From assembly GCF_002283555.1 (NCBI RefSeq), contig NZ_MVOI01000015.1:186001-250000 (forward strand): 64,000 nucleotides of DNA, written 5' to 3'. Below the pieces are notes generated by a model. It did not search any database, had not been told where the DNA came from, and worked only from the letters and a program-made list of their open reading frames with translations. The DNA comes from Rubrivirga sp. SAORIC476 (GTDB lineage: Bacteria > Bacteroidota > Rhodothermia > Rhodothermales > Rubricoccaceae). Position 1 is the first letter of the stretch. Every line of letters begins with the position of its first letter. This document shows, piece after piece, positions 58,443-61,670 of this stretch. The translations under genes were made by a program, and so were the position numbers.

Positions 58443-58451
58443 CCGGCCCCG

Positions 58452-59165
58452 CTATCCGCTCGCCAGCGTGCGGGCGACGGCCTGGGCAGCGGCGAAGACC
58501 GGCGCGTCGAAATAGTAGAGCGCCAGAGCGGGGATGGACGTGTCGGCCCCGGCGAGTTCGGACACCGCGAGGTAGAGCGCGGTGATGGACAAACTGGGCT
58601 CGAGGTGATCGAGGGCCGGGTTCTTGTACCCGCCGGCGAAGATCTTCGCCGCGACGGGAGTCAGGTTGAGGATCGTCCCGTCGGCGCCGAGGTCGGGAGC
58701 CCGGTCGTTGAAGGCCAGGATCGCGTTGGCGTAGGTGTTGGCGATGGCCTCCAGCGACGCCCGCCGCTCCTCCGCATCGGAGGGGGTCTGTCCCAGCTGG
58801 GGCGAGAACGAGTGCAGGACGCGGCGCCCGGGGCCCGTGGACGTGTTGAAGATGGCGGAGCGCGGCTGGATGGCCGGGACCGGGGCGAGGTCTGGGAACG
58901 CGCCGTAGATCGCCCCACTGCCTCCGCCGCCCGAGGGCTTCCGCCCGGACCCGATTGCGCTGCCCGCCGGGTCCTGGATGGCGCCGCGTGGCGCCGTCTG
59001 CACGCCTCCGTGGATCAGCGAAAGCGCGTGGCTCAACGCACCCTCCGCACCGGCAGCCCCCAGCAGAGCCCTGGGGTCGGGAATGACGCGACCCGACGCG
59101 TCGAACAGGCCCTCAGACAGCGCCGGGACAGAGACGGGGTTGGCATCGAACTCGCGGATGGGCAT
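58452..59165 (-). CDS. candidate divergent macrodomain (ADP-ribose-binding) protein
   Basis: A 237-residue cytoplasmic protein without an obvious family. Three stretches follow the macrodomain order. SGGGGSGAIYGAF at 78-90 parallels the GGGGVxGAI ribose/phosphate loop. RRVLHSFSPQLG at 114-125 parallels the KxVIHxVGP strand. ILNLTPVAAKIFAGG at 165-179 parallels the PxIGxGIFG loop. The Asn of a usual NAAN motif is not evident. I infer an ADP-ribose or related nucleotide-binding fold, perhaps without hydrolase activity. The ATG at 59165 starts MPIREFDANPVS; an upstream in-frame start at 59729 is antisense to the GT2 gene. Convergent with the GNAT-like gene, 9 bases between stops. Confidence 0.55.
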   Translation of the reverse strand: MPIREFDANPVSVPALSEGLFDASGRVIPDPRALLGAAGAEGALSHALSLIHGGVQTAPRGAIQDPAGSAIGSGRKPSGGGGSGAIYGAFPDLAPVPAIQPRSAIFNTSTGPGRRVLHSFSPQLGQTPSDAEERRASLEAIANTYANAILAFNDRAPDLGADGTILNLTPVAAKIFAGGYKNPALDHLEPSLSITALYLAVSELAGADTSIPALALYYFDAPVFAAAQAVARTLASG

Positions 59166-59178
59166 GGTCGTGGGGAGA

Positions 59179-59221
59179 GGAGAGGGCAGGGCCGAGGGGA
59201 AAGGAGAGGGCAGGGCCGAGG
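59179..59221 (-). repeat. 24-base tandem repeat in the leader of the macrodomain-like gene
   Basis: GGAGAGGGCAGGGCCGAGG occurs at 59179-59197 and 59203-59221, a period of 24 bases, with a partial third copy toward the gene. On the transcript this is a CCTCGGCCCTGCCCTCTCC pyrimidine tract just before the ATG. Confidence 0.6.
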
Positions 59222-59325
59222 ATGGCGCGGAGTGGATAGGTACACCGGACGGGCTCCCCCAGGCGTCGGGGGGAGTCGCGCGGTCTTGACCGGCACCCCG
59301 GCGCGGCGTGTGGGATCTTTCGGCC

Positions 59326-60066
59326 ATGCCGCCCGCCGTCGCCCTCGTCCTGCCCGCCCTCAACGAGGCCGACAACCTCGCCGAGGCCGTGGCCCAGGCG
59401 ACGGCCGCACTCGACCGCGTCGACGGCGGCTGGGAGCTGGTCATCGTGGACGACGGCTCGACCGACGGCACGGCCGGGTTGGCCGACCGCCTCGCCGAGG
59501 CGGACGCCCGCGTCCGCGCCGTGCACCACCCTAAGAACCGCGGCAAGGGGGTCGCCTTGCGAACAGGCGTCGCGGCCACCACCGCGCCCGTCGTGGGCTG
59601 GACCGACGCCGATCTGCCGTTCGACATGGAGGCGCTGGGCCGCGCCGTCGCCCGCCTCGGCGAGACCGGCGCCGACCTCGTCGCGGGCGTCCGCACCAAC
59701 CGCGAGGAGTACTCGCTGCGCCGCCGCATCCTGTCGGGCGGCTACAACGCCCTCGTCCGCACCCTCCTCGGCGTCCCGATGGACGACGTCGGGTTCGCGC
59801 TCAAGATGATGCGCCGCGAGGTCTTCGACCGGGCCGACCTCCAGAGCGACGGCGGTTTCGTAGACGCCGAGTTGATGGCGTGGGCCCACCGGGCGGGTCT
59901 CCGTGTCGAGCGGGTGGGCGTCGCGTTCACGCCGCGCGTGGCGGGCGAGTCCACGATGGCGGGACCGGCGTCGGTGGCGGGCATCCTGCGCGACATGGTG
60001 CTGTTTCGGCTCGGGCGGCTCCGTCCCCGGACGGCCGCCCGACGCCCCCGTGGGGCCTCGGCATGA
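59326..60066 (+). CDS. family 2 glycosyltransferase (polyprenyl-phosphate sugar synthase-like)
   Basis: A 246-residue GT-A enzyme. VALVLPALNEADNLAEAV starts it, then VIVDDGSTDGTAGLADRL, GKGVALRTGV, and TDADLPFDMEAL as the DxD-type site. The late region VGFALKMMRREVFDRADL and ESTMAGPASVAGILRDM is typical of dolichol/undecaprenyl-phosphate sugar synthases. It probably charges a lipid carrier with a sugar on the cytoplasmic face. A GATCTT variant element lies only 6 bases before the ATG, so the mRNA may be leaderless. The stop overlaps the next ATG (ATGA). Confidence 0.88.
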   Translation: MPPAVALVLPALNEADNLAEAVAQATAALDRVDGGWELVIVDDGSTDGTAGLADRLAEADARVRAVHHPKNRGKGVALRTGVAATTAPVVGWTDADLPFDMEALGRAVARLGETGADLVAGVRTNREEYSLRRRILSGGYNALVRTLLGVPMDDVGFALKMMRREVFDRADLQSDGGFVDAELMAWAHRAGLRVERVGVAFTPRVAGESTMAGPASVAGILRDMVLFRLGRLRPRTAARRPRGASA

Positions 60067-61670
60067 TGGAGCGCGCCCGACGGCTCGGCCCGCCGGCGTT
60101 CGTGGTCGTGGCGCTGACGGTCGCGGCCTACCTCCGCGTCGGTTACGGGTACGGCACTGGCGACCACGAGGAACTGCTGCCCCAGTTGCTGCGCGCCCTC
60201 AACCCGACGCTGTTCTCGACCGACCCGTACCTGCTGAATGAAGAGGCCGGGTTCAGCGTCCGCTTCGTGTGGCTGGGGCTGCTCCGCGCGCTGTGCCTCG
60301 TGATGCCGCCGCCGGTGGCCGTGTTCGTGGTGAGCGTCGCGGCGTGGGCGGGCGTCAGTTGGGCGGCGTTCCGGCTGAGCATGACGCTGGTCCCCAGCCG
60401 AACCGCTGCGACGCTGGCCGTGCTCGCGTCGTACGCGACGATCTACTGGACGCCGGGCAGCAACGCGCTCATCTCGCCGACGCTGGCACCCGAGTCGATC
60501 GCGTGGGCCCCCGCGCTGCTGGCCGTCGCCGCGTTCCTGCGCGGGCGCCCGCTCGTCGCCGCCGCGCTCCTCGGCGTGACCGCGTGGATGCAGACCCTGA
60601 TGGGGCTCCAGATCGGGCTGCTGCTGGGCCTCGTCGCCCTCTGGCAGATGGCGGACGGCGCCCCGCTCCGCGCCCTCCGCGACGCCGTGACGTTCGGACT
60701 CGTGTTCGCCGTCGTCGCCGCCCCGATCCTCGTCCCGACGCTCTGGACGCAGGTCGGCGCCCCTCCGCTCCCCGACGACGGGCTGACGACGTTCACGGTG
60801 ACGGCGTGGCTCCGGCAGGCGCACCACTACCTGCTCTCGGCCCAGCCCCTCGGGGTGCTGGTCAAATTCGCGATCGTGATCGCGGTGGGCGTCGCCGGCC
60901 TGATCGCCCTCCGTCGGCGCGGCGAGCCGCCCGTCCAGCACCTCCGGACGACCGCGCGGATGCTGGCCGTGATCGCCGTGCTGGTGGCGGCCTACGTGGC
61001 AGGGACCGAGGGCGCGGAGAGCCTGACGGTCGCCAAGATGCAGTTCTTTCGCCTGACGCTGATCGCCAAGCTGGTGCTGCTGACGTGGACCTCGGGCGCG
61101 GCCGTGGCCGCAGTCCCGCCGAGGTGGCGAGAGGCGGCCGACCGGGCGTTCGACCGCCCCCGCCTCGGGTGGGCGACGGCCGGAGCCGTGGCGGCGCTAA
61201 CGGTCGCCGCCAGCGTGGCGGATGTGGGACGCCCCGGGGCGATGTGGCACCCGCGCGAGCACATCGGGACCGACCTGTACTGGACCGAGATGCAGATCCG
61301 GGCCTCTACTCCGCAGGACGCGCTCTTCCTCGTCCCGCCCTCCACCACTACGTTCCGGAGCCACGCGCTCCGATCGGTCGCGGTCAACTTCAAGCCGACC
61401 ACCTTCCGGGACGACAAGATGCACGAGTGGCTGGCGCGCATCCGGACGGTCGCCCCGGCGCCGCTGCCGGACCGCACCGGAGATGCTGTGATGGCGTGGC
61501 GCGCGTCGCTGGACAGCGCCTACTCCGTCCACACGCCCGCCGGGTGGGCCCGCCTCGGCGACACGTTCGGCGCCGACTACGCGCTCGTCGATCGGGAGCA
61601 GACGCCGACGCCCCCTCCAGGAGACCCCGTGATCGAACACGGGCGGTGGGCGGTGTACGCCCTGGAGTGA
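60063..61670 (+). CDS. polytopic membrane protein, GT-C/DUF6798-like
   Basis: A 535-residue membrane protein with about 11 hydrophobic helices, starting FVVVALTVAAYLRVGYGY and followed by an acidic GTGDHEELLPQL loop after helix 1, as seen in GT-C enzymes that use polyprenyl-phosphate sugars. A ~150-residue C-terminal domain outside the membrane follows (YWTEMQIRASTPQDALFLVPP...). Such C-termini occur in DUF6798 proteins. The ATGA overlap with the GT2 gene suggests the GT2 makes the donor and this protein uses it on the outer face (inference). Acceptor unknown. Confidence 0.7.
   Translation: MMERARRLGPPAFVVVALTVAAYLRVGYGYGTGDHEELLPQLLRALNPTLFSTDPYLLNEEAGFSVRFVWLGLLRALCLVMPPPVAVFVVSVAAWAGVSWAAFRLSMTLVPSRTAATLAVLASYATIYWTPGSNALISPTLAPESIAWAPALLAVAAFLRGRPLVAAALLGVTAWMQTLMGLQIGLLLGLVALWQMADGAPLRALRDAVTFGLVFAVVAAPILVPTLWTQVGAPPLPDDGLTTFTVTAWLRQAHHYLLSAQPLGVLVKFAIVIAVGVAGLIALRRRGEPPVQHLRTTARMLAVIAVLVAAYVAGTEGAESLTVAKMQFFRLTLIAKLVLLTWTSGAAVAAVPPRWREAADRAFDRPRLGWATAGAVAALTVAASVADVGRPGAMWHPREHIGTDLYWTEMQIRASTPQDALFLVPPSTTTFRSHALRSVAVNFKPTTFRDDKMHEWLARIRTVAPAPLPDRTGDAVMAWRASLDSAYSVHTPAGWARLGDTFGADYALVDREQTPTPPPGDPVIEHGRWAVYALE

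Follow-up and report, generated by a model that had tools for sequence, protein, structure and literature searches.

The window, the whole 64,000-nucleotide stretch of Rubrivirga sp. SAORIC476 DNA analyzed here, carries at 58452–59165 on the minus strand the gene for a putative divergent macrodomain protein. The reading frame opens with an ATG at 59165, contains no internal stops, ends with a stop codon finishing at 58452 and specifies 237 amino acids (aa). Its G+C content by codon position (0.69/0.56/0.89) resembles that of the adjacent genes; the values for an overlapping plus-strand frame are 0.88/0.66/0.65. The ATG is supported by the fact that two homologs, comparable in length and described below, begin in the same column of a three-protein alignment. 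The frame is a real gene. It is flanked by a GNAT/FemAB-like gene and a glycosyltransferase gene. A 24-base minisatellite (59160–59221; 2.6 copies, 89% match) covers its start codon and leader, and sits in the divergent intergenic region ahead of the glycosyltransferase gene.

An earlier note, made from the sequence alone, described a protein of no evident family in which three motifs – SGGGGSGAIYGAF, RRVLHSFSPQLG and TPVAAKIFAGG – follow one another in macrodomain order, and from which the NAAN-type Asn is missing. These observations are confirmed: the motifs are present in that order, the protein contains no NAAN, and no model from Pfam, NCBIfam, PHROGs or PADLOC recognizes it, even at permissive cut-offs. 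Single-sequence searches of genomes from the order (114), class (244) and phylum (395) found no relatives, and neither did searches of genome contigs, viral contigs, phages and plasmids. The matches returned (L002–L017, for example) were at chance level; on inspection L012, L090 and L004 were dismissed as local Gly-rich or low-complexity matches.

Relatives were found with a DNA pattern taken from the macrodomain reading: GGGxxGA[IVL], then [VIL]HxxxP, then ...[IV][FY][AGS]G, with the spacing of the 237-aa protein and some slack allowed. A near-identical version matches the window once, at the gene itself, and has no match in 100 shuffles. Against 85,000 genomes (257 Gb) the pattern gave two exact matches. 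One is a true homolog, an intact 243-aa protein from Lewinellaceae bacterium SD302 with 45% identity end to end; the other (L075) lies out of frame over a membrane-transport-like reading frame and was rejected. A two-sequence profile added a third member (253 aa, E 4.6e-60) in a genome from the same family as SD302. A partial repeat of the start of this third member (L117:2257–2472) precedes a stretch of N in its contig and is probably an assembly artefact. In viral contigs, neither degenerate-alignment scans with synthetic search rows nor profile-based scans found a relative; one set of pattern matches there was not in frame, and at another set of pattern loci a profile search found no relative. 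The protein family is very rare, and none of the family libraries searched has an entry for it.

Of particular interest is the pattern of conservation. Overall identity among the three members is only 44–46%, which argues that the motifs invariant in all of them are not chance: IQDPAGSAIGSG (bar the flank of its first two positions), GGG.SGAIY, R.LH..SP and IFAG. In the three-protein alignment these lie within a first invariant block, G.V..AP.G.IQDPAGSAIGSG..P.GGG.SGAIY..F..L.P.PAI, and a series of later ones: IFN, R.LH..SP.L, L...AN.Y.NA, N..P....IFAG, N..L.HL.PS....AL..A and Y..D.

The segments can be placed on the macrodomain plan, all on the minus strand. SLIHGGVQ (residues 49–56; 58998–59021) takes the position of the first strand, x-GDIT, in both PDB and hhalign alignments and may have a ligand role; the position of the adenine-binding Asp is Gly here and Ser or Ala in the homologs. 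The segment QDPAGSAIGSGRKPSGGGGSGAIY (residues 64–87; 58905–58976) is a remodelled loop 1, standing in place of NAAN...GGGxxGAI: QDPAGSAIGSG and GGG.SGAIY are invariant and align to NAANS..GGG.xGA, with DPAG falling on NAAN, and the loop is about six residues longer. RVLHSFSP (residues 115–122; 58800–58823) corresponds to the VIHxVGP strand, its invariant R.LH..SP aligning there. The loop 2 equivalent of G[VIA][YF]G is NLTPVAAKIFAGGY (residues 167–180; 58626–58667), with N..P....IFAG invariant; the aromatic F176 is kept, and the Gly that precedes it in the signature is replaced by K, R or A. This variation excludes the loop-2 Lys, to which the earlier note had drawn attention, as a conserved catalytic residue. 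Downstream are a family-specific N..L.HL.PS segment, NPALDHLEPS (residues 182–191; 58593–58622; N182, L185, H187, L188, P190 and S191 invariant), and LYYFDAP (residues 216–222; 58500–58520; Y217 and D220 invariant), which is probably the last core strand of the fold. That positions of loop 1, the strand and loop 2 are among the invariant ones is as expected for a ligand cleft.

Comparison with solved structures points in the same direction. When the 237-aa protein was searched against all PDB sequences with phmmer, the best four matches were alphavirus nsP3 macrodomains (E 0.0075–0.01), aligned across the strand-1, loop-1 and VIHxVGP segments; the next match was unrelated (E 0.32). Taken alone this result is only suggestive of a macrodomain fold. 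The SD302 homolog and the third member, searched singly, also found alphavirus macrodomains best (E 2e-4 and 0.034), and profiles found them at 1.1e-4 (two sequences) and 3.4e-5 (three sequences), the next match to the latter being unrelated (E 0.13). Reversed or column-shuffled versions of the three-sequence profile gave no PDB match at E≤10. Against 22 bacterial MacroD proteins, hhalign returned P 0.005, with a score that none of 300 column shuffles reached, in the expected register: GxVQ on GDIT, DPAGS on NAANS, GGGGSGAIY on GGGGVDGAIH and LHSYSP on IHTVGP. Against a broader MacroD set the score was weaker, only about fourth of 301. The C-terminal half alone gave the expected register, with 3 of 200 shuffles reaching its score; the N-terminal half alone gave a wrong register and no significance. 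Together these sequence comparisons make it very probable that the fold is that of a macrodomain, a superfamily whose proteins bind ADP-ribose tags or take them off, and the proposal of a divergent macrodomain is supported at this level.

Assignment to a macrodomain class is another matter. Pfam scans of the three proteins returned no match to PF01661 (Macro), even a weak one, and PF01661 matches nothing anywhere in the window's genome. An Asp in a 'GD' pair after strand 1 is common, although not universal, in the macrodomain superfamily. This adenine-coordinating Asp is absent from all three members (G/S/A), and is likewise absent from MavL, an active hydrolase (PMC10951314). The macrodomain classes (PMC7050489), the role of NAAN (PMC7729036) and the signatures of MacroD, PARG and DUF4804 proteins (PMC10951314, PMC6500376) have been described. 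Loop 1 of the family contains neither NAAN nor the MacroD signature Nx(6)GG[VLI]D, and has IQDPAGSAIGSG..P.GGG.SGAIY in their place; in loop 2, [KRA]IFAG retains the aromatic and aliphatic residues of G[VIA][YF]G without its first Gly. No QEE follows the GGG in any of the three members, as the PARG signature GGGx(6-8)QEE would have it, and the DUF4804/MavL catalytic loop WDxx[SA]xPGN[DE] is absent. The family is macrodomain-like by profile and lies outside the MacroD, PARG and DUF4804 classes.

The best-scoring solved relatives, the alphavirus nsP3 macrodomains (MacroD-type class; PDB 3gqe, 5mqx, 9zrf), present strand 1, the GGGxxGA[IL]Y of loop 1 and the (V/I)(L/I)H..xP strand in the order seen here. 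Identity to them is low, however. Their GD corresponds to G-[GSA] in the family and their NAAN to DPAG; the viral loop leads directly from NAAN to GGG, and the family carries a longer IGSG..P insert there. Bacterial MacroD and YmdB-type hydrolases (PF01661) resemble the family in the loop-2 aromatic and, weakly, by profile, the register being the same; it lacks their signatures in both loops. The MavL/Larg1 class (DUF4804, arginine-specific macrodomain hydrolases) is similarly divergent, patchy and devoid of the adenine Asp and of MacroD and PARG motifs; in contrast, the family protein is much smaller, lacks WDxx[SA]xPGN[DE] and has no Pfam match. DarG, an ALC1-like antitoxin macrodomain, is also an accessory bacterial macrodomain; unlike it, the family protein has no DarT partner and its sequence is dissimilar.

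The reading we prefer, with a probability of roughly 55%, is that of a stand-alone macrodomain-fold protein that binds ADP-ribose or an ADP-ribosylated substrate and acts as an (ADP-ribosyl)hydrolase with a different set of loop-1 residues. The ligand would lie in the usual macrodomain cleft. Its diphosphate and distal ribose would be held by two loops, the Gly-rich GGGxSGAIY and IFAG, and the ribose would be positioned by the loop-2 Phe; the ADP-ribose bond would then be cleaved by a residue of the new loop 1, for which D65 is the first candidate. Because conservation in the protein is among the highest in the diphosphate and ribose loops and at the arene, the ligand is probably of the ADP-ribose type. 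Hydrolase ('eraser') activity is an even proposition: the extension that stands in place of NAAN is invariant and contains an Asp, which favors an eraser with loop-1 residues unlike those of MacroD enzymes over a pure reader, and the invariance of this 12-residue loop argues for chemistry over mere binding. The altered chemistry anticipated in the earlier note keeps its basis in the lost NAAN, to which the lost adenine Asp is added, and forfeits that in the Lys; the note's interpretation as a whole is partly supported. More tentatively, the family may be a new class of macrodomain hydrolase, in which the loop that replaces NAAN bears a catalytic or ribose-coordinating residue, encoded by a lone accessory gene spread horizontally. 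Among environmental bacteria, the family would form an unrecognized, sharply defined branch of the macrodomain superfamily, one that has kept the ligand loops without the residues underlying the MacroD and PARG mechanisms. If active, it would provide a further catalytic solution for ADP-ribose removal, as did MavL, and would hint that its host bacteria, one of which has no ordinary macrodomain gene, contain an ADP-ribosylation substrate as yet unrecognized.

Several alternatives must be set against this hydrolase reading, and the macrodomain matches in the PDB come from one closely related viral clade. The protein could have no macrodomain at all and be an unrelated Gly-rich alpha/beta protein with a loop resembling macrodomain loop 1: AlphaFold models are too poor to reveal a three-layer alpha/beta/alpha macrodomain structure or another fold (pLDDT 36 from one sequence, 32 from two), Pfam finds nothing, and the significant PDB match covers mainly residues 49–147. 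Three motifs in register, a calibrated E of 3.4e-5 with clean decoys, and the fact that each member independently matches macrodomains first make this improbable. A reader or pseudo-enzyme, for which ADP-ribose (or O-acetyl-ADP-ribose) would be a ligand and not a substrate, deserves rather more weight, while still unlikely: macrodomains comprise readers as well as erasers (PMC7050489), and the family has lost the NAAN Asn and the MacroD and PARG signatures, with K, R or A for the loop-2 Gly. However, the strong invariance of the whole of IQDPAGSAIGSG suggests selected chemistry, and a lone single-domain protein would be an unusual setting for a reader.

The remaining alternatives turn largely on genomic setting. 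In one congener (G050) the two flanking genes are directly adjacent, 76 bp apart, and the macrodomain gene is missing; in two others (G048 and G049) different genes lie to the left of the glycosyltransferase, and a profile search found the family gene in none of the three. The SD302 and third-member genes lie amid unrelated neighbors, not those of the window. Since neighbors are not common to the homologs they carry little functional information; together with the empty or variable site, this marks the gene as accessory and its location as a variable spot, and it behaves as a gene moving between Bacteroidota-type genomes. Glycosyltransferase and acyltransferase genes adjoin it in the window, and this, with the rebuilt loop 1 and the G/S/A at the adenine-binding Asp, would suit a fold re-purposed for another nucleotide or sugar-nucleotide ligand, or for metabolite processing unrelated to ADP-ribosylation. 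We consider this somewhat less likely than a reader, given that those neighbors are absent beside the homologs and that MavL is active without the Asp. Patchy distribution and the empty site would also suit an antitoxin or immunity protein that reverses a toxin's ADP-ribosylation, as macrodomains do in DarTG (PMC7050489). Against such a DarG-like role, which the earlier note had raised, no ADP-ribosyltransferase, toxin or secretion gene was recognized beside any of the three family genes, and DarT was found neither beside the window's gene nor elsewhere in its genome; the idea has no support and is the least probable reading. The locus has further features: the variable insertion spot (58443–59325; L021, L068, L069) lies to the left of a conserved glycosyltransferase gene and in G048 includes a metallo-beta-lactamase-fold-like reading frame. 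At 59880–61670 in the window is a large membrane-protein-like reading frame with a C-terminal DUF6798 domain, which is kept beside the glycosyltransferase in congeners.
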